64,000 nt of DNA from Acidobacteriota bacterium (GTDB lineage Bacteria > Acidobacteriota > Terriglobia > Terriglobales > SCQP01). Made by a program: the position numbers and the translations under genes. Location of the stretch: positions 62,001 to 126,000 of the forward strand of contig DAIDIE010000023.1 of the NCBI GenBank assembly GCA_027459505.1. The letters run 5' to 3'. The notes below the pieces were generated by a model, which worked only from the letters and a program-made list of their open reading frames with translations, ran no database searches and was not told the DNA's origin. The first letter of the stretch is position 1; each line of letters starts with the position of its first letter. Positions 35,287-50,425 of the stretch are shown piece by piece.

Positions 35287-35587
35287 TCCCAATTTGCTCC
35301 CCCAACCCCTTCCCAGACAGTGGCGTTGGTGACGAAAAACGTCCATCCAAACGACAGCAAGTGTAGACTGTCCCCTTGCTTTAAGCCGAAGTTCATGAGA
35401 ATATGCTGTGGCGCAAGAGAAAACATCTGAAAACACAGGGCTTTTGCCAAGCTTGGTTCCTGCCGTAGGGAAAGGCAGCTCAATTGCAAATTGTGGAGCG
35501 CGTGATGCGATCGGCCGCGCTCAGGGGTGCAGCAAGCTCCGAAACGGCGAGGCAGCACCAAACGGATTAGAAAAGAGGAGATTCCCA
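35287..35587 (+). promoter_or_regulatory. Structured 5' region of the pilin operon
   Basis: 301 bp without a gene before the first pilin. Hairpins follow one another: TGCC/GGCA (35461-35477), CAATT/AATTG (35480-35493), GAGCGCG/CGCGCTC with a 13-base loop (35496-35522) and GGTGC/GCACC (35526-35559), then AGAGGAG and the ATG. I compared it with the cyclic-di-GMP-I riboswitch because pilin genes often carry one, but the conserved core is not present. It may be an unnamed leader. Confidence 0.35.
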
Positions 35588-36061
35588 ATGCGTTCCAAGC
35601 GCTCGCAAGGTTTTTCGTTGATCGAAATGCTGATCGTCGTGGTGGTCATCCTGATCATTGTCGCTATCGCTATCCCGAAGCTGCTCGCCGTGCGCATGAC
35701 AGCCAATCAGACCGCCGCCGCCGCCAACATGCGCAGCATTGACACTGCCGCAACCGGCTACGCTTCCCAGTACACTTCTGTTGGTTATCCCGCCGCGCTG
35801 GCCGATTTGGGCGGTGCCGATCCCTGCACCCCCAGCTCTACCACCGCCTGTCTGGTGGACAACACTCTGGCAAGCGGTTCCAAGCAGGGCTACACCTTTA
35901 CCTATGCCCAGGTCAGCAGTGGCACCGATTTCACTCTTTCTGGAGCCCCAACCAACGTCAATACCACCGGCCGCCGCTACTACTACAGTGATTCGACCAA
36001 CGAAATTCACTACAACGATGGCAGCGCGGCTACGGCTGCCAGTCCTGTGATTGGCAGTTAA
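35588..36061 (+). CDS. pilA: Type IV pilin (PilA-like), first of two
   Basis: Prepilin of 157 aa: leader MRSKRSQG, then FSLIEMLIVVVVILIIVAIA with Glu+5, followed by an amphipathic helix. A disulphide-type loop GGADPCTPSSTTACLVDN is shared with the next gene. Start chosen by AGAGGAG 7 bases before the ATG and by the short leader; the frame is open 60 codons further up but that part has no similarity. Together with the PilH/PilI-like genes downstream, this looks like a Myxococcus-type pilin locus, and it is the best candidate for the major pilin. Confidence 0.88.
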   Translation: MRSKRSQGFSLIEMLIVVVVILIIVAIAIPKLLAVRMTANQTAAAANMRSIDTAATGYASQYTSVGYPAALADLGGADPCTPSSTTACLVDNTLASGSKQGYTFTYAQVSSGTDFTLSGAPTNVNTTGRRYYYSDSTNEIHYNDGSAATAASPVIGS

Positions 36062-40981: not shown

Positions 40982-42175
40982 ATGCCGCAATTTAGTGTCA
41001 AAATCCTCAATGATCAGGGCCAAACTCTGGAGCAATTGGAAGATGCTCCCTCCGAGCAGGAACTCCGCGAGCGCTTCCAGCGCCAGGGGCTGCTGGTTAC
41101 CTCCGTCAGCCCCCGGATTTCTTTTTCCCGATCACGCAAGCGGGGCGTCAAACGCGACGCCTTCCTGGTTTTCAATCAACAGTTTGTGACCCTGATCCGC
41201 GCCGGGTTGCCCATTCTTTCCGCCCTGGAGTTGTTACAGAAGCGATCTCGTGACCAGCGTCTGTCCGCGCTGTTGGCCGCCGTCTCCGAGCGCGTGCGGG
41301 GGGGCGCTATTCTGTCCGCCGCTTTCCGGCAAGAACCTTCTGTCCCAGAAGTCTATGCCACAGTCCTCAGCGCCGGCGAGCGCAGTGGCAACCTCGATGA
41401 GGTCCTTACCCGCTACATTCACTATCAGCGGGTGGCGCAATCCATCCGCAAAAAGCTGCTCAGCTCGTTGGCCTACCCCACCCTGCTGGTGGTTATGGTG
41501 GTTGTGGTGTTAACGTTCTTGATCACTTTTGTGGTTCCGCGCTTTGGTGCCCTGTACGGATCTTTAAACGCACAACTCCCTTCCATTACTGTTTTCATGC
41601 TCCACCTCGGCCTGGGTGCCAAGCATTACTTCCCAATCCTGCTGCTGGCCCTGGTGGCTTTCGTTATATTTGCGCGCTCGGCTTTGCGTCAACCCGGCCC
41701 CCGAGCTTTTAGCGAACGCCTCCTGCTCCATCTGCCGCTGGTTGGCGAGTTATGGTGGAAATATCAAGTGGCGCTGCTCAGCCGCACCCTGAGCACCCTG
41801 CTTCAGGGCGGTGTTCCCCTCGTGCAGGCGCTGCAAACTTCCTCTACCGCGCTGTCCAGTGTTCATCTCCAGAAGGCGCTGATGATGTCGGCCAGTGACG
41901 TCCGGGAAGGCCGTGGGTTGGCGCTCAGCCTGGCCGCACATCAGGTAATGCCAAGCTTGGCTATTGAAATGATTGAAGTGGGCGAGGGAAGCGGCGCCTT
42001 GCCGCCTATGCTCGCCAGCGTTGCTGAGTTTTACGATGAGGACATTACCACCGCGCTGACGGCCATTCTTTCCTTGATCGAACCCCTCATCCTTATTGTT
42101 GTCGGCGTCGTTGTGGCCGTGGTGCTCATTTCTTTGTACATGCCCATTTTTTCTCTCGGCCAGAGTATTCATTAG
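40982..42175 (+). CDS. pilC: Type IV pilus inner membrane platform protein PilC
   Basis: GspF/PilC family, 397 aa. Two T2SSF domains are visible: FNQQFVTLIRAGLPILSALELL...SGNLDEVL, and LLSRTLSTLLQGGVPLVQALQ...VGEGSGALPPML, each followed by long hydrophobic segments. It anchors the PilB motor and connects to the pilin filament. It begins 30 bp after the TMTC-like gene, so the operon from the pilins continues through it. Confidence 0.94.
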   Translation: MPQFSVKILNDQGQTLEQLEDAPSEQELRERFQRQGLLVTSVSPRISFSRSRKRGVKRDAFLVFNQQFVTLIRAGLPILSALELLQKRSRDQRLSALLAAVSERVRGGAILSAAFRQEPSVPEVYATVLSAGERSGNLDEVLTRYIHYQRVAQSIRKKLLSSLAYPTLLVVMVVVVLTFLITFVVPRFGALYGSLNAQLPSITVFMLHLGLGAKHYFPILLLALVAFVIFARSALRQPGPRAFSERLLLHLPLVGELWWKYQVALLSRTLSTLLQGGVPLVQALQTSSTALSSVHLQKALMMSASDVREGRGLALSLAAHQVMPSLAIEMIEVGEGSGALPPMLASVAEFYDEDITTALTAILSLIEPLILIVVGVVVAVVLISLYMPIFSLGQSIH

Positions 42176-42318: not shown

Positions 42319-44247
42319 ATGCACCCATCACCACAGTGGTTGATTTGGTTTGGTTGGAAACGCCCCTTTCTACGTGCTCAGCTCATCAGCTTGGCGGTAG
42401 CTGGACTGCTGGCCACCATTTGCCCGAACTTGGGTGAAAGATTCTTTGCCCGTTTTCAGTCGCGCTGTTCGCGACTGGCTTCCCGGCCCTGGTTTTGCCC
42501 CAGCTTGCTGTTTTGCTCGACACTGCTAGTGGCTCTTCTGTTTGGGTTGCGGCGGCAACCCGTTCCAGCCGTTCATGATGAGTTTAGTTACCTGCTCGCG
42601 GGCCGCACCTTTTACGCCCGCCATCTGGCCAACCCTGCGCCTCCGGCTTGGCCCAGCTTGCAGACCTTCCACGAGATCCTCTCTCCTGCTTACCAATCCA
42701 AGTACCCGCCGATGCAAGGCGTTTTCTTGGCCCTCGGCTTGGTTTTTGGCCGCGCTATCGTTGGTGTATGGATTTCGGCTGCTTTAGCCGTGTGCTCTCT
42801 CTACTGGATGCTGGCCGGCTGGATTTCCCGTTCTTCGGCTTTTGCCATGGCCGTGCTTGTGTTGGCGGTCACGGCTAACAGTTACTGGGCACAGAGTTTT
42901 TGGGGAGGCATGCTCGCCTTCGCTGGGGGGAGTCTGGTTTATGGGGCGCTGCCGCGCATCTTGCAGGAAAAACCATGGTTTGGCTGGCCGATGTTGAGCG
43001 CTGGTTTGCTCCTGTTGGCCAATTCCAGACCCTACGAAGGGCTATTAGTGAGTCTTCCCGTGCTGTTTCGCCTCGCCTGGGCCGCACTGCACGGTAAGTT
43101 CAGCCCCGCCGCCTCTCAGGTCGCGAAAGCCCATCGCGCACCTTTCGTTAGCGCCCTGACGCTGCTGGCGGCCGGCTTTGCCTGGATGGGCTTCTATAAC
43201 TTCACTGTCACGGGCTCCCCTTGGCAGATGCCCTACATGCTTTATACCCGCCAGTTCGATCCCTCCCCGATTTTTCGCTTTCAAACACCTCGCCCGTTCC
43301 CTGCCTATCTGATTCCCGCAATGGCTGAGTTCTATCATGGGGTGGAGCACGCCACCTACTTGGAACAGATGGTGTCGTTTCACGCCTGTGAAACCAATGC
43401 CTTTCTTTTGCTCAGTTTGGGACGATTGTTGCTGGGCCCGGCCCTGTTGCTTCTGGTGTTGCTCAGCCCGCTTGGTGCTCCTACTCGCAAAACCAGAATC
43501 CTGGGTTGCGCGTTGGCCCTCTTTGTGGTCTGGTTTGCGGCGGGCGGAAGTTGGTGGTTTCAATTTCAGACCGGTCTTGAGGTCTGGATTTCGGTGCTGG
43601 TTCTGATCGCGGCGCTTCTTTGCTGGACCGCACCTGAGCTGCTGATTCCTGTTGCCGGCTCGTTGGCTGTGCTGGCCGGAGTGTACCTTTCTATTTGGCA
43701 GTTTCCGCACTATGCCGCTCCAATGGCGGCTCCTTTCCTGCTCCTCTGTGCGGCGGGACTGCGTGTCTGGTGGCGATCTCCCTGGGGACGGCCGGTGCTG
43801 CGTTGGATGGGCCTGGGAATGCTCGTGAGCCTGGGTGTCGCTCTCGCCATCACTCCTCGGCCTCGATCACCAGTGGCTCTGTTTGGGCGGCGGCGCGCTC
43901 GCATCGCTCGCCTTCTGGCCCAGCAACCTCGCAAGCAATTGGTCTTCGTCAGCTATGGTCCCTTTCACAACCTGAACACCGAATGGGTGTTTAACCGTCC
44001 CGCTCCGGCGAGCGCTCAGGTCGTTTGGGCACATAAGCTGGACACGCAGCGCAACCGGCAACTCGTAGCTGCTTACCCTGACCGGCAGGTTTGGTTGCTC
44101 TGCGCAGATTTCAACCCTCCGGCGCTGCGCCCCTATCCGGCCTCCTGCCATTACCCGTCGCTCTTGGCGCCCAGCTGCCCTTGGGCGAAGGACTTTCCGA
44201 TCAATCGCCTGTGGCAGGCGTCCTCCTTCGCCCCTCGCAGCCCCTAA
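42319..44247 (+). CDS. Polytopic GT-C (family 39-like) glycosyltransferase-like protein
   Basis: A 642 aa protein with about 12 membrane helices. The first external loop has an acidic pair in PAVHDEFSYLLAGRTFY, similar to the catalytic DE of GT39/ArnT-type enzymes, and SKYPPMQGVFLALG follows as in those families. The C-terminal 120 residues are soluble. I cannot assign donor or acceptor. It sits between pilC and pilB and, like the TMTC-like gene, could modify surface proteins. Divergent element copy 7 starts about 15 bp after the stop. Confidence 0.7.
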   Translation: MHPSPQWLIWFGWKRPFLRAQLISLAVAGLLATICPNLGERFFARFQSRCSRLASRPWFCPSLLFCSTLLVALLFGLRRQPVPAVHDEFSYLLAGRTFYARHLANPAPPAWPSLQTFHEILSPAYQSKYPPMQGVFLALGLVFGRAIVGVWISAALAVCSLYWMLAGWISRSSAFAMAVLVLAVTANSYWAQSFWGGMLAFAGGSLVYGALPRILQEKPWFGWPMLSAGLLLLANSRPYEGLLVSLPVLFRLAWAALHGKFSPAASQVAKAHRAPFVSALTLLAAGFAWMGFYNFTVTGSPWQMPYMLYTRQFDPSPIFRFQTPRPFPAYLIPAMAEFYHGVEHATYLEQMVSFHACETNAFLLLSLGRLLLGPALLLLVLLSPLGAPTRKTRILGCALALFVVWFAAGGSWWFQFQTGLEVWISVLVLIAALLCWTAPELLIPVAGSLAVLAGVYLSIWQFPHYAAPMAAPFLLLCAAGLRVWWRSPWGRPVLRWMGLGMLVSLGVALAITPRPRSPVALFGRRRARIARLLAQQPRKQLVFVSYGPFHNLNTEWVFNRPAPASAQVVWAHKLDTQRNRQLVAAYPDRQVWLLCADFNPPALRPYPASCHYPSLLAPSCPWAKDFPINRLWQASSFAPRSP

Positions 44248-44261
44248 ATGCCGTACACTCG

Positions 44262-44420
44262 CGCCGGGGCCCCGGCGAATCCGCAGTTTGGCTTTCGTGG
44301 GGTGGCTCGTGCGGGAGAGATGCCCGGCATCCGCGGCTTCACAGCCTCACTGCAGAACCGGCCAGCAACCCGCCAGCAAGCTATGCCGGCGGGCGGCTCA
44401 AGAGACGAGGCCATGCCTTT
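44262..44420 (+). repeat. Interspersed hairpin element, copy 7 (divergent, alternative middle module)
   Basis: Recognisable by GCCCGGCATCCGCGGCTTCAC, a decayed third hairpin region, and ATGCCGGCGGGCGGCTCA to GAGGCCATGCCTT. The 5' half is replaced by CGGCGAA...TTTGGCTTTCGTGGGG, which matches copy 8 but not copies 1-6. It lacks the first and second hairpins of copy 1. Confidence 0.75.
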
Positions 44421-44603
44421 GGCGCGCGCGCGCAGCCCCCCTCCCCGTTTTCGCAACTCCCGCGCAGTGTTAGAATAACCGTACTCTCGTCTGCAGTTTG
44501 CGAGTGGCAGATCCCGGCCTTTCCCAAGCGCCGGGGCGGGGTATCGTTTCCGATTTCCGCCGCTTGCCGTGCGACGCGAGCGCCACGAGCGCAGTTCCCA
44601 CGC

Positions 44604-46271
44604 ATGACTTCCCGCATCTCGAATCCAGTCGCCGGTCCGGCTTCCGCCGCCCCCAGTCCGGCCGCTCCCCCCTTTGCCGTCAGCGACGAGCTGGGCCGCG
44701 CCCAGGATCTGGCCCGTCGCTATCATTGCCCCTTCATCGACCTGCGCGACCAGCGCATCGATCCGGAACTGTTCCGCCGCGTCCCGGTGGAACTCATGTT
44801 CCGCTACAACTTCGTGCCGCTGCACGGCGATGAGGAAAGCGTCACCATCGCCCTCGCCGATCCCAGCATGCTCATGATGGTGGACGAGATCGGGCTGCTG
44901 CTCAACCGCCGCATCGAGATGCAGGTGGCCACCCTCGGCCAGATCTCCGACATCCTCAAGAAAAATGAGCAGTCGCAGCGCGTCCTCGACGAGGCCACCG
45001 AGGGCTTCACGCTCGATGTCATTCGCGAAGATGAGAGTGGCGACGAGACCATCTCCATCGAGAAGCTCACCGGCGACCGCGACATCAGCCCCATCATCAA
45101 GCTGGTCGACACCACGCTGTTTACCGCCCTGGAGCGCCGCGCCAGCGACATCCACATCGAAACCGGCGACGCCGAAGTCATGGTCAAGTACCGCATTGAC
45201 GGGGTGCTGCACCAGGCCATGGCGCCCATCGCGCGCGAATTTCATTCGCCCATCATCTCCCGCATCAAGGTGATGAGCGAGTTGGATATCTCCGAACGCC
45301 GCGTGCCCCAGGACGGCCGTTTCCGCGTGCGCTATAAAGGGCGTTCCATCGACTTCCGCGTCTCCATCATGCCCAGCATCCACGGCGAGGATGCCGTGTT
45401 GCGCGTGCTCGACAAGGAGGCGATGAGCGAGAAGTTTCACAAGCTCACCCTCGACGTCGTCGGCTTCGATGAAGACGACCTGCGCAAATTTCGCCGCTAC
45501 ATCCACGAGCCCTACGGCATGGTGCTGGTCACCGGTCCCACCGGCAGCGGGAAGACCACCACCCTCTACGCCGGCCTCAACGAGATCCGCACCGACGAGG
45601 ACAAAATCATCACCATCGAGGATCCGGTGGAGTACCAGCTCCGCGGCATCACGCAGATCCCGGTGAACGAGAAAAAGGGCCTCACCTTTGCCCGCGGCCT
45701 GCGCTCCATCCTGCGCCACGATCCCGACAAGATCATGGTGGGCGAAATCCGCGACGCCGAAACCGCCCAGATCGCCATCAACGCCGCCCTCACCGGTCAC
45801 CTGGTTTTCACCACGGTGCACGCCAACAACGTCGTCGACGTGATTGGGCGCTTTCTCAATATCGGCGTCGAAGCCTACAACTTCGTTTCCTCGCTGAACT
45901 GCATTCTGGCGCAGCGCCTGGTGCGCATGATCTGCACCTCCTGCAAGCACCCGGTCAGCTACCCGGCGGAATTTCTGGAAACTTCCGGCATCCGCCCCGA
46001 AGCGCTCGACTTTGAGTTCTACGAGGGCGCCGGTTGTCTGGAGTGCGCCGGCACGGGTTATCGCGGACGCACCGCTATCCACGAGCTGCTGGAGATGACC
46101 GACGCCGTCCGCGAACTCATTCTGGCCAAGCGCCCCAGTTCGGAAATCCGCCGCATGGCGCGCGAGCAGGGCATGAAGTTTTTGCGCGAGTCCGCCCTGG
46201 ACCGGGTGCGCGCCGGAGTGACGACGCTGCGCGAGATCAACAAGGTCACCTTTATCGAACTGGCACGTTAA
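44604..46271 (+). CDS. pilB: Type IV pilus assembly ATPase PilB
   Basis: Hexameric extension motor of 555 aa. The N-terminal MshEN-type domain (residues 20-150) precedes the ATPase core: Walker A GPTGSGKTTT (about 310), Asp box, Walker B MVGEIRDAETA, His box GHLVFTTVHAN. A zinc-binding set of four cysteines is present (CTSCKHPV and GCLECAGTGYRGR), typical for PilB/GspE and absent in PilT. Start set at ATG 44604; the frame is open upstream through element copy 7 but lacks similarity there. First gene of pilB-M-N-O-P. Confidence 0.95.
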   Translation: MTSRISNPVAGPASAAPSPAAPPFAVSDELGRAQDLARRYHCPFIDLRDQRIDPELFRRVPVELMFRYNFVPLHGDEESVTIALADPSMLMMVDEIGLLLNRRIEMQVATLGQISDILKKNEQSQRVLDEATEGFTLDVIREDESGDETISIEKLTGDRDISPIIKLVDTTLFTALERRASDIHIETGDAEVMVKYRIDGVLHQAMAPIAREFHSPIISRIKVMSELDISERRVPQDGRFRVRYKGRSIDFRVSIMPSIHGEDAVLRVLDKEAMSEKFHKLTLDVVGFDEDDLRKFRRYIHEPYGMVLVTGPTGSGKTTTLYAGLNEIRTDEDKIITIEDPVEYQLRGITQIPVNEKKGLTFARGLRSILRHDPDKIMVGEIRDAETAQIAINAALTGHLVFTTVHANNVVDVIGRFLNIGVEAYNFVSSLNCILAQRLVRMICTSCKHPVSYPAEFLETSGIRPEALDFEFYEGAGCLECAGTGYRGRTAIHELLEMTDAVRELILAKRPSSEIRRMAREQGMKFLRESALDRVRAGVTTLREINKVTFIELAR

Positions 46272-46277
46272 ACCACC

Positions 46278-47213
46278 ATGTCCCTGCAAAGCGCCTTCAG
46301 CAGCCTGATTAACTCGCCTCCGCCGCAGGTTGCGGTCGAGGTCAGCTCCGGCTTTGTCGCCGCCGCCCGCGTGGGCAAAGCCGGCGAGCCGCTCAACTGC
46401 CTGCGCCCACTGCCAAGCGGGGCACTGAGCCCCTCGCCCGCGCAGCCCAATGTGCTGGATGCGGAAGCCCTCACCACCGCCCTCCGCGCCGCCCTGGAAA
46501 TGGTGGGCGGCGCCGGCAAAGAAGTTTGCTGTCTGGTGCCGGACGTGACCGCGCGTCTCGTGCTGCTGGATTTTGAGACCATTCCCCCCAAGCGCGATGA
46601 CCTGCTGGCGCTGGTGCGCTTCCGGCTGCGCAAGACCCTGCCCTTTGACGCGGACGGCGCCGCTGTCAGCGCCCAGGTCTTCAGCAATGGCGTCACACGC
46701 CGCGTGCTGGCCACGGTCGCCGACCGGCAGCGCCTGGACGAGTACGAGGACTGCCTGGAGCGCGCCGGCGCCCGCGCCGCCCTGCTCTGGCCCGCCGCGC
46801 TCGGTTACCTGCGCTGGATGGATACCGCGATGACGCCCCACCTGCTGTTGCGCGCCGCTGCCGAGAGCCTGACCTCCGTGATCGCCGATCAGCATCAGGT
46901 GTCGTTTTATCGCGCCTTTTCGCATTCCTCCACGCACGCTCTGCGGCTGGAGGATCTGTTTCCCTCGGTGGCCTTCTACCAGGACCTGCTGACCGGAAAT
47001 GATGGCTGGAGTGCCTCCGGGCAGGCCACCATCGTCTGCTGCGGACTTGCGCCGCAATTGTTGCAGGAGCTGCGCCAGGAATGCGACTGGGCGCAGATTG
47101 AAGACGCCGCCGCCTTGCTCCCCGCCAGCCGCGGCGATGCCGACCGGCTGTTGGGTGTTCGCGGCGCCCTGCTGCCGCTGCGGCAAATCGCGCATGGAGG
47201 GCTGAGCGCGTGA
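46278..47213 (+). CDS. pilM: PilM-like pilus assembly protein
   Basis: Actin-like cytoplasmic protein of 311 aa that binds the PilN N-terminus. It begins 6 bp after pilB. Visible features: VAVEVSSGFVAAARVG (phosphate-1-like loop), VCCLVPDVTARLVLLDFE and PPKRDDLLALVRFRLRKTLPFD, a pattern common to PilM. It overlaps pilN by 4 bases. Somewhat shorter than E. coli/Pseudomonas PilM (about 350 aa). Confidence 0.87.
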   Translation: MSLQSAFSSLINSPPPQVAVEVSSGFVAAARVGKAGEPLNCLRPLPSGALSPSPAQPNVLDAEALTTALRAALEMVGGAGKEVCCLVPDVTARLVLLDFETIPPKRDDLLALVRFRLRKTLPFDADGAAVSAQVFSNGVTRRVLATVADRQRLDEYEDCLERAGARAALLWPAALGYLRWMDTAMTPHLLLRAAAESLTSVIADQHQVSFYRAFSHSSTHALRLEDLFPSVAFYQDLLTGNDGWSASGQATIVCCGLAPQLLQELRQECDWAQIEDAAALLPASRGDADRLLGVRGALLPLRQIAHGGLSA

Positions 47214-47896
47214 ACCTGCAACTCAATCTCGCCCGCCGTCCCGCCGAAAACCGCCGCCGCGTCTGGGTCGTCTGGGGCGGTCTCTTTGCGATTTCCTTTG
47301 CCTGCTTTCTGGTCTTCCTGCTGGCATCCCTCGCTGACTGGAACAGCACCGCGCGCGTGCGCCGTCAGATCACCGTGCTCGACCACAGCCTGAATCCCTT
47401 ACGGAAACAGGAGCGCGAGCTCTATGGCCGCCTCAGCCGCCCCAGCGTCAAAGACGAGATGCAGCGTTCCGCGTACATCAACAGCCTCATTGACCAGAAG
47501 GCGGTTTCCTGGACACTGCTCTTTGAACGTTTGGAGGCGCTGCTTCCCCAGCGTGTGCAACTGGTCGAGCTGCGTCCCGGCCGTCAGCGCCGCGAGTCGG
47601 CGGTGCAGATCACCGTGGCCGCTCCCGACGTGACCGACGCCATTGCCTTCATCCGCCAGCTCGAGGGGGCTCATGATTTCAGTGACCCACAGGTACTAGA
47701 CGTGCGGCACCGCTCGGCGCAGCAGGGTAATGGGGTGTTGATGAGCGTGCGGACTTCCTATCACCCGCCCTTGGCTTCGCCCACCTACTGGGGGCAGCCG
47801 CAGTCGGCCGAAAGCGGCCTGGCGGCATCACCCACCCTCGCCGCCAACCACTTCACTCAGGGCAGCGGGAGCGCCGCCAACCGGAGGCAGCCATGA
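47210..47896 (+). CDS. pilN: PilN-like pilus assembly protein
   Basis: A 228 aa bitopic inner membrane protein. The N-terminal peptide MNLQLNLARRPAENRR is the PilM-binding INLL-type motif; one membrane helix follows (LFAISFACFLVFLLASL), then a periplasmic coiled coil and a ferredoxin-like domain. GTG start overlapping pilM, and overlaps pilO by 4 bases. Confidence 0.88.
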   Translation: MNLQLNLARRPAENRRRVWVVWGGLFAISFACFLVFLLASLADWNSTARVRRQITVLDHSLNPLRKQERELYGRLSRPSVKDEMQRSAYINSLIDQKAVSWTLLFERLEALLPQRVQLVELRPGRQRRESAVQITVAAPDVTDAIAFIRQLEGAHDFSDPQVLDVRHRSAQQGNGVLMSVRTSYHPPLASPTYWGQPQSAESGLAASPTLAANHFTQGSGSAANRRQP

Positions 47897-48525
47897 ACCT
47901 GAGCGACACACGCGATCTCCGTCACGTCCTGCGTGGCTGCGCCCTGTTGTTCTGCGCCCTGGACGTCTTTCTGATCGTCTGGCTGCTTTCCCCCTGGGCG
48001 CCTTCGCGCGCGCGCGCCGAGCAGCGCCTCCGCGATCGCCAGCAGGAATTCACCCGCCTGCAAAACGAGGTCAGCGGCCTGCACCGCTTCGACCACGACC
48101 TGCTCCTCAGCCATAAGCAGATGGCCGAATTGTTTTCCCAGGGAATGCCGCCCGCCGATAAGGCGTATTCAACGATCCTGCTGGAGTTGCAGCGCATCTC
48201 CTCCGACACCGGCGCCCAGGCGTCGGCGGTGAACTTTCATCCCAAGCACAAAGCCGTCAACGGCCTGCTTCAGGTGCAGGTGAATGCCAGCTTGTCAGGG
48301 AATTATTCCCAGGTGGTTCACTTCATCAACGAGCTGGAGCGTTCGCCACTGTTTCTCATCATCAATTCCGTGTCGCTCTCCCCCACCCAGAGGCAGGGTG
48401 CGGCAGGCGCATTGCGCCTGAACATTGGGCTGGAATCGTTTGTGCAAGCGCCCCCGGGCGCAGCCACTTCTAAACCCACGGCCACGGCTACCACCGCGAA
48501 TGCGGGCGCTGCGGAGGCTCTGTGA
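47893..48525 (+). CDS. pilO: PilO-like pilus assembly protein
   Basis: A 210 aa bitopic protein with one membrane helix (ALLFCALDVFLIVWLL), a coiled coil (residues 45-85), and a periplasmic domain with SLSGNYSQVVHFINELERSPLFLIINSVSL, a standard PilO core motif. It should pair with PilN in the alignment complex. Overlaps the next gene by 4 bases. Confidence 0.9.
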   Translation: MNLSDTRDLRHVLRGCALLFCALDVFLIVWLLSPWAPSRARAEQRLRDRQQEFTRLQNEVSGLHRFDHDLLLSHKQMAELFSQGMPPADKAYSTILLELQRISSDTGAQASAVNFHPKHKAVNGLLQVQVNASLSGNYSQVVHFINELERSPLFLIINSVSLSPTQRQGAAGALRLNIGLESFVQAPPGAATSKPTATATTANAGAAEAL

Positions 48526-49073
48526 ATACCAGGACTTCTCCCAAGCAAATCGCTATTCTCGCGGCCCTGGGCGCCGTTGCCGCGCTGGCGCTTTGGCACG
48601 CCTTTTCCGGTCATTCGGTGAACAACCTGCGCCAGGCGGCGGGCATTCGCGTGAACGCGCATGGCAATCTGGAGAACCAGGATCCGGCATTGCGACTCGA
48701 CCTGTTGAAACGACTGCGCGATGTGCGCTATCACGGCAGTCTGCGGGATCTGTTCCATCCCGGCGTCACCCTAAGCGCCAGCGCCAACCCCGCCGGCCGC
48801 ATGCCGGCGAAGCCGCGGCGCATTGTTCCTCTGCCCCCGGTTCAGATGGGTCCCCCGCCGCCGCCCCCGATACCGCTCAAGTTCTACGGTTACGCCAAGG
48901 GCGCCGATGTGCCACAAAGTGTGTTCCTGCAGATGGGCGATGACTTTTACGTGGTGCGCGCCGGGCAGGTGATCCAGAACCGGTATCAAATTCTGAGCAT
49001 CAGCCGGACGGCGGTGCAGGTGAAAGACCTGCAATCGCAACAGACGCAGCAGCTACCGCTGCTGAACGGCTAA
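48522..49073 (+). CDS. PilP-like periplasmic protein
   Basis: A 183 aa protein with an N-terminal hydrophobic segment (IAILAALGAVAALALW), a Pro-rich linker (about 95-120) and a small beta domain (LKFYGYAKG, VFLQMGDDFYVVRAGQVIQNRYQIL, AVQVKDLQSQQTQQLPL) resembling the C-terminal domain of PilP/GspC, which contacts the secretin. No lipobox. GTG start coupled to pilO. The expected pilQ secretin gene does not follow in this window. Confidence 0.75.
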   Translation: MNTRTSPKQIAILAALGAVAALALWHAFSGHSVNNLRQAAGIRVNAHGNLENQDPALRLDLLKRLRDVRYHGSLRDLFHPGVTLSASANPAGRMPAKPRRIVPLPPVQMGPPPPPPIPLKFYGYAKGADVPQSVFLQMGDDFYVVRAGQVIQNRYQILSISRTAVQVKDLQSQQTQQLPLLNG

Positions 49074-49143: not shown

Positions 49144-50130
49144 ATGGCAGTACCTCCCATCAAACGGCGCCGTTCTCAGGGCTACGCGCTGATGATCATC
49201 TTTCTGATGTTGGCGCTGATTTCCATCTATTTCGCGGAAGCGGCGCCCAATTGGAAAGTCAAGATCCAGCGTGAGCGCGAGGTGCGCTCCATCGACTACG
49301 CCAAGCAGTACGCCATGGGGGTGCGCCGCTACTATCACAAGTTTGGTTCCTACCCGCCCAACCTTTCCCGTTTGAAAGAAACCAACGGGCAGCACTACCT
49401 GCGGCGCGCCTGGAAAGACCCGCTCACCAAGAGTGGGCGCTGGTATTTCCTGACCCCAGCCGACGTGCTGGCCAACAGCATCGTGCCCACGCCCGCGAAC
49501 GCCAATGCCAATGGAGCCAACACGGGTGGACAAAATGGCGGAAACCCCAGCAGTGGTTCCGGCAACACCGGAGCTGGCAACTCACCCGCTGTCGCCCTGG
49601 GGGGTATGTTCAGCGGCGGCGTCTCTCAACCGCCGTCCAGTAGCGACAACGCGGATGGTTCGGGCAGCGGCTCGGGCGCTGACCAAACCGGCGATGGTGC
49701 GAGTGACGATTCCGATTCGACCGATTCGCTGAATGCCAAGCTCAAAAAGAGTCCCGCCTGCAGAGCTGGCGATAGTGGTGGCGGATCGATGGACGACAGC
49801 AGCGACAGTGACAACTCGTCGCCGTCCCCCGCCCCCTCCGGTCCCGCTCCTGGCGGTCCGCAGTTTGGCGGGGCGGGAATCGCCGGTGTCTCCAGCCGGA
49901 GTGATCGCCCGGGTATTCACGAATTCGCGGGCAAAGATCGCCCCTGCGAATGGAAATTCATGTACGACCCACGGCTGGACGTGGCGGCGGGCGGCGCCCC
50001 CGGTGCCCCCGGCGCGCCCGGAACACCTGGCGGCGCGCCGACCGGTCCTACCGGACCGACTGGTCCCACCGGACCAACTGGTCCCACCGGACCGACCGGT
50101 CCTATGGGCGGCGGTCCGGGCGGAGCCTAA
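49144..50130 (+). CDS. Pseudopilin-like protein with collagen-like C-terminal tail
   Basis: A 328 aa protein of three parts. Residues 1-110: basic leader ending RRSQG, hydrophobic helix YALMIIFLMLALISIYF, and a GspG-like domain (RSIDYAKQYAMGVRRYYHKFGSYPP). The mature residue +5 is Ile, not the Glu needed by most pilins. Residues 120-250: Gly/Ser/Asn/Asp-rich spacer. Residues 280-328: Gly-X-Y collagen-like triplets (GAPGAPGAPGTPGG, then repeated GPT). A family of pseudopilins near pilP is common in Acidobacteria (from memory), but the collagen-like tail is unusual. Element copy 4 starts 59 bp after its stop. Confidence 0.8.
   Translation: MAVPPIKRRRSQGYALMIIFLMLALISIYFAEAAPNWKVKIQREREVRSIDYAKQYAMGVRRYYHKFGSYPPNLSRLKETNGQHYLRRAWKDPLTKSGRWYFLTPADVLANSIVPTPANANANGANTGGQNGGNPSSGSGNTGAGNSPAVALGGMFSGGVSQPPSSSDNADGSGSGSGADQTGDGASDDSDSTDSLNAKLKKSPACRAGDSGGGSMDDSSDSDNSSPSPAPSGPAPGGPQFGGAGIAGVSSRSDRPGIHEFAGKDRPCEWKFMYDPRLDVAAGGAPGAPGAPGTPGGAPTGPTGPTGPTGPTGPTGPTGPMGGGPGGA
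50040..50105 (+). repeat. Collagen-like tandem DNA repeat (GGACC/GGTCC alternating)
   Basis: Nine-base units coding Gly-Pro-Thr alternate GGTCC and GGACC, so neighbouring units are inverted copies and the tract can fold into nested hairpins. It is in frame within the pseudopilin-like gene. Length change by slippage would add or remove whole triplets. Confidence 0.8.
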
Positions 50131-50188
50131 CAGCAGCAAAAACGGGGATGCGAGCACGGCCGGAATGCGGACCGGTCATCAATACTCT

Positions 50189-50369
50189 AGGAGCGAGCCG
50201 CCGAGTCCTCCCTGCGGGAGGAGATCGCAGGTGGAGGGCCGCGAAATTCCGAAGGGCGGCCCCCCGCGCGCGGGAGAGGAGCCCGGCATCGGCGGCTTAA
50301 CGTTCTCACTGGAGAACGTGCCAGCGACCAACGGGAGCGGGCGGCCTGAAGGAGACGAGGCCGTGCCTC
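50189..50369 (+). repeat. Interspersed hairpin element, copy 4 (short, module type -B)
   Basis: 181 bp. The 41-base module with the 12-bp stem is cleanly missing between GGGAGGAGATC and GCAGGTGG, and the 3' variant is type B as in copy 2. First and third hairpins are intact apart from one outer pair. It lies between convergent genes, 59 bp after the pseudopilin stop and 56 bp from the stop of the minus-strand gene. Confidence 0.92.
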
Positions 50370-50425
50370 CATCCCCGTTGGCGTGTTTTTGACGTCTCTT
50401 CTCTATTGCAGCTATTGCAGCCCCG

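Follow-up and report, generated by a model that had tools for sequence, protein, structure and literature searches.

Glu5-less pseudopilins at filament tips and the PP3 family

GspK (PulK/XcpX) is a minor pseudopilin of the type II secretion system (T2SS), which carries an alpha-helical domain inserted between its strands 1 and 2 and is seated at the tip of the pseudopilus. An incoming pilin subunit uses its Glu5 to pair with the N-terminal amine of the one above it, and the first subunit can do without this residue (PMC5207764). The lack of Glu5, a size larger than that of the major pilin and a gene placed last (3′) in the pilin cluster were proposed in 2016 as signatures of tip-initiating pilins (PMC5207764), and in known tip complexes the cap is a subunit without Glu5 (PMC10191384). 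A literature search combining Acidobacteria, type IV filaments and secretins found no paper.

The window analyzed here, a stretch of 64,000 nucleotides from an Acidobacteriota bacterium, encodes a pseudopilin without Glu5. The family to which it belongs is defined by this loss and is named PP3 in the following. Its gene and conserved domains are laid out as follows:

49144..50130, plus strand: PP3, Glu5-less pseudopilin of 328 aa (intact ORF; orthologs in relatives)
49144..49182, plus strand: class III leader MAVPPIKRRRSQG, cleavage predicted from sequence after Gly13, at the 49182 end
49195..49197, plus strand: codon of mature residue 5, Ile replacing Glu
49183..49464, plus strand: conserved N-terminal pilin part, a long helix followed by YYxKFGxYPP, LR and DP motifs (alignment)
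49471..49866, plus strand: low-complexity insertion from the helix part to the C-terminal strands (pLDDT about 30)
49867..49980, plus strand: conserved C-terminal block GGAGIAGVSS...CEWKFMYDPRLD with two predicted strands (model of a relative)

The protein starts with MAVPPIKRRRSQG^YALMIIFLML, with Gly at position −1, Tyr instead of Phe at +1 and Ile at +5. The first-pass annotation had read Ile at mature position 5, and this reading holds, with the leader being followed by YALMI in exactly the ORF 49144-50130. A basic leader, Gly −1 and a hydrophobic N-terminal helix, all features of a class III signal, are present, and Gly −1 is found in 67 of 70 aligned PP3 orthologs, the remaining three having a gap at that column. 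A profile search places type IV pilins nearest to PP3 among solved structures, although this match is weak (E 7e-4). No Pfam or NCBIfam model scored above its cut-off for PP3, and an Rfam search together with a promoter/terminator scan of the locus yielded nothing above chance.

With residues 1-108 as query, PP3 was detected in 99 of the 100 order-level relatives searched, and this conservation at the protein level shows that the reading frame is real. Of 297 genomes across the phylum, 233 gave a match when this domain was taken from a relative and used as query. The named relatives found by a contig search with a six-sequence alignment were metagenome-assembled genomes of Acidobacteria/Terriglobia. 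Glu5 was absent from all of about 125 PP3 orthologs (68 from the order with a letter at this position and 56 from elsewhere, the latter being those orthologs read there that are Glu5-less). Among the 70 aligned orthologs of the order, position 5 is occupied by Ala (26), Gly (14), Val (12), Ile (6), Thr (5), Phe (3) or Leu (1), with two gaps; Ala, Leu, Gly, Val, Met, Thr, Ile, Tyr and Ser were found in the 56 orthologs from outside. This suggests that the loss of Glu5 is old and fixed. The idea of a peculiarity of this one gene was rejected, as the family alignment exhibits the loss throughout PP3. In a tree, Glu5-bearing and Glu5-less classes lie apart with no misplaced sequence, at a modest support of 0.65. 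Measured from residue 1, PP3 proteins have a median length of 202.5 aa, compared to 129 aa for 60 Glu5-bearing matches of the PP1/PP2 type, the two short pilin-like proteins discussed below, of which 55 end in Trp.

Four residues of the C-terminal half (G248, W270, F272 and Y274) are conserved at 97-99% across 70 PP3 orthologs, and the insertion preceding them varies in length and composition. AF2 modeling of the window protein with a 10-sequence alignment yielded a confident helix for residues 10-67 and little else (mean pLDDT 40.9, pTM 0.21). A likewise weak model of a shorter relative, also built on ten sequences (mean pLDDT 51, pTM 0.39), contains the long helix, three strands and a disordered tail, with the insertion sitting between the first and the second strand. 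A fold search of the PDB with an AF2 model returned type IV pilins among the best matches, none of them significant. Cys206 (49759-49761) and Cys268 (49945-49947) seem to be matched by cysteines in some close relatives (GFGAC...RPC-W), and possibly they form a disulfide which closes the low-complexity insertion.

Gene order and likeness to GspK and GspG

The PP3 gene lies directly 3′ of the PilP-position gene, and the machine genes upstream of it run in the same direction:

40982..42175, plus strand: platform protein GspF/PilC (PF00482)
42319-44247: ORF between GspF/PilC and the ATPase, no Pfam match
44091..46271, plus strand: assembly ATPase PilB/GspE (PF00437, PF05157); mechanical ORF with a probably internal start
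46278..47213, plus strand: PilM/GspL-position protein, named from position and conservation, no Pfam match
47210..47896, plus strand: PilN-like protein (PF05137)
47893..48525, plus strand: PilO/GspM-like protein (PF04350, PF10741; GspM_XpsM below cut-off)
48522..49073, plus strand: PilP-position inner-membrane protein, at the same place in relatives, no Pfam match

Distant members possess a contiguous run of pilP-secretin-PP1-PP2-PP3, in which PP3 is the last gene. Most of the loci examined from this order keep GspF-E-PilM-N-O-P-PP3 together. In the genome under study the run is split, with secretin-PP1-PP2 being located on another contig (C31) and PP3 remaining behind pilMNOP. The order-level relatives sampled have the same split, and secretin and PP1-PP2 were both recovered in eight of ten such loci; L205 exhibited no secretin above threshold, and for L209 PP1 alone, and no secretin, was recovered. 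Several relatives have PP3 located away from pilMNOP. As profiles for GspI, GspJ and GspK gave no match in this genome, PP1, PP2 and PP3 are likely to be the pilin set of the machine.

Three further observations were made at these loci. The secretin whose gene accompanies PP1 and PP2 (L165:8314-10998, contig C31) has a C-terminal match to the cohesin domain (PF00963, E 1.4e-8), which is unusual in a secretin. Upstream in the window lies another pilin-like gene (35585-35701, plus strand), whose canonical GFSLIEML start includes Glu5. Just 3′ of PP3 (50188-50370) lies a copy of a repeat that is dispersed through the genome; it measures about 182 bp and is present in at least 41 places (40 of 198 first-look candidates scored), with copies mostly 87-97% identical. 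Translated fragments resembling it seem to be present again near 51.7, 53.5 and 59.3 kb of the window.

All three of the signatures proposed for tip-initiating pilins are found in PP3 of distant members. There PP3 shares with GspK the absence of Glu5, a size exceeding that of the co-encoded pilins and the last place in the pilin run, and the low-confidence model of the relative adds an extra segment between the first two strands. Unlike the alpha-helical domain of GspK, however, this segment is of low complexity and predicted to be disordered in low-confidence models, and PP3 is accompanied by two GspG-like proteins instead of GspI and GspJ. It scores 21.7 bits on NF037980 against a cut-off of 130, and PF03934 (T2SSK) has no match across this genome. 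As PP3 fails the GspK profile, it is said here to work like GspK and is not named GspK. With GspG it has in common the layout of a helix, a YP..L...LR..DP region and a C-terminal Y-x-x-W, and several members show weak GspG profile matches. In contrast to GspG, PP3 lacks Glu5, stays below the GspG cut-off and has both the extra insertion and a tail past the Trp at which PP1 and PP2 stop. Conservation across the family, gene order and size lend good support to the suggestion of the first-pass annotation that Glu5 loss marks a GspK-type tip pseudopilin.

The C-terminal tail and its triplet array

PP1 and PP2 mostly end at Y-x-x-W, whereas PP3 runs on via F-x-Y-D-P into a tail:

49981..50127, plus strand: C-terminal low-complexity tail (pLDDT <50; 34-115 aa in the order)
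49993..50028, plus strand: GAP GAP GAP GTP block (triplet analysis)
50044..50097, plus strand: (GPT)6 array with an 18-bp tandem period and only synonymous variation

The Gly-X-Y triplets noticed earlier at the end of the protein are real, as (GAP)3GTP and (GPT)6GPM can both be read there. In full, the C-terminus GGAPGAPGAPGTPGGAPTGPTGPTGPTGPTGPTGPTGPMGGGPGGA consists of GAP GAP GAP GTP, the interruption GGAPT, six GPT, GPM and GGGPGGA, i.e., of four and seven triplets split by the interruption. None of 500 composition shuffles of the tail attained seven triplets. The shuffles were also exceeded by three members of another genus of the order (L068, L074 and L089), whose tails contain 7-10 Gly-Ser/Thr-Ser/Thr triplets without any proline; their period-3 glycine array is independent of that in the window.

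At the DNA level, the GPT array is an 18-bp tandem unit in 3.6 copies with 89% matching. The differences among its six GPT units all fall on third codon positions and are synonymous, which suggests that the Gly-Pro-Thr motif may be under selection and argues against pure neutral slippage. Counting about six independent changes, a rough estimate from one genome gives a chance of (1/3)^6, i.e., about 0.001, under neutrality. The codon pattern thus hints at a maintained Gly-Pro-Thr sequence. Within the 4.06-Mb genome, (GPT)3 occurs nowhere but in the PP3 tail, and (GPT)4 was not found in any of 99 other related genomes.

Every complete order-level ortholog carries a tail of 34-115 residues in which Gly, Pro, Ser, Thr, Asn or Gln abound, and tails in this order are as a rule non-collagenous and of low complexity. 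The repeats differ from tail to tail, e.g., (GST)n, (GFGGSS)n, (GQP)n and (FGQPSS)n; in the most closely related genus, whose N-terminal domain is 66-68% identical, the Gly/Pro/Thr tail is irregular. In 68 tails taken together, the spacing of glycines is enriched alike at periods 3, 4, 6 and 12 (z 6.2, 5.4, 6.05 and 5.2), so that period 3 is not special. Among the 56 orthologs from outside the order, none has a tail with five or more Gly-X-Y triplets, and in 13 of them W-x-F is followed by less than 25 residues. The GAP/GPT ending is thus a private variant of a variable tail predicted to be disordered. When homologues were checked for the same tail, as had been proposed, the collagen motif was lacking in relatives, which by the refuting condition named there speaks against that motif, whereas a tail as such was present throughout the order.

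Alternative readings and the tip model

The best explanation, which we regard as probable, is that PP3 is a tip pseudopilin with a disordered, non-collagen tail. PP3 would belong to a type II secretion/type IV filament machine of Acidobacteriota and, judging from its sequence, would be made as a prepilin and cut after Gly13. Its most likely role, by analogy, is that of a Glu5-less cap and initiator of the pseudopilus which acts like GspK. It would cap a short pseudopilus of two Glu5-bearing GspG-like subunits, PP1 and PP2, supplied from elsewhere in the genome where they are encoded with the secretin. As a subunit without Glu5 has no need of docking on a subunit above, PP3 could start the filament and then sit at its tip, from where the disordered insertion and the C-terminal tail may point toward the secretin. 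The (GAP)/(GPT) triplets probably arose through expansion of the 18-bp unit and would act as a flexible Gly/Pro/Thr extension which forms no collagen triple helix. Counting against the tip model, position 5 of PP3 is often Ala or Gly and the substitution of Glu5 is therefore not always bulky and hydrophobic; the weak AF2 models, the non-significant fold matches and the relatives in which PP3 lies away from pilMNOP count against it as well.

The machine might instead be a type IVa pilus with PP3 as an ordinary minor pilin, as its inner-membrane genes can be read as a pilMNOP set and its ATPase has a slightly higher score for PilB than for GspE (550 vs 532 bits). The co-inherited secretin, however, matches GspD better than PilQ (129 vs 110 bits, both below cut-off), the PilO protein also matches GspM-type families, and PP1 and PP2 are short, GspG-like and end in Trp, which makes this reading unlikely. 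A different question, which concerns the tail alone and is compatible with a tip pseudopilin, is whether selection maintains the tail as a functional low-complexity segment whose bulk and flexibility count more than its exact sequence, perhaps as a secretin plug, a spacer or a substrate contact, maybe glycosylated on Thr. Its presence in all complete orthologs read from the order despite repeat turnover, as well as the exclusively synonymous variation within the array, speak in favor of such a function; the nearly tailless proteins among the distant orthologs (13 of 56), however, indicate that the PP3 family as a whole does not need a tail, and we consider this possibility tentative.

The first-pass annotation had taken the triplets to suggest that the pilus machine carries a trimeric stalk or tether, for which three PP3 copies would zip together via their (GAP)/(GPT) tails. 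It is true that the triplets exceed composition chance, that codon variation in (GPT)6 is silent and that bacterial collagens commonly choose Pro in X and Thr in Y (PMC8968730). Gly-Pro-Thr triplets are also what PP3 shares with bacterial collagen-like proteins (BclA, Scl and Lcl). Unlike these, however, it has only 11 triplets in two blocks at its extreme C-terminus instead of an uninterrupted extended Gly-X-Y domain, and the repeat is not retained in its homologs. In collagens, a non-collagenous domain of 20-250 residues directs trimer formation (PMC8968730), and a Pfam search found no trimerisation domain in PP3. With eleven triplets in two blocks and no such domain found, the tail is poorly suited to form a triple helix. 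It is moreover predicted to be disordered in a monomer model, no relative read has a (GPT) tail, and family-wide glycine spacing at period 3 is no stronger than at period 6 (z 6.2 vs 6.05). The stalk idea was thus not borne out by the short, interrupted array, the differing repeats of other tails and the near absence of a tail in some distant members, and it appears very improbable. CofB, a minor pilin, is known as a tip-located trimer in type IVb pili (PMC10191384), and by analogy a selected short GAP/GPT tail might let three tip subunits associate into a collagenous trimeric tip; this variant is likewise very improbable. A literature search on Gly-Pro-Thr triple-helix data found no paper combining these.

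PP3, a probable tip pseudopilin with a probably non-collagen tail, represents a pseudopilin of most sampled Acidobacteriota genomes which has been missed by Pfam and NCBIfam cut-offs. The seeming collagen tail of the window protein is one version of a fast-changing tail predicted to be disordered. PP1 and PP2 with Glu5 and PP3 without it form a candidate three-pilin set where the GspI, GspJ and GspK profiles match nothing. If true, this would provide a simple natural case for asking whether one Glu5-less subunit can suffice to start a pseudopilus.
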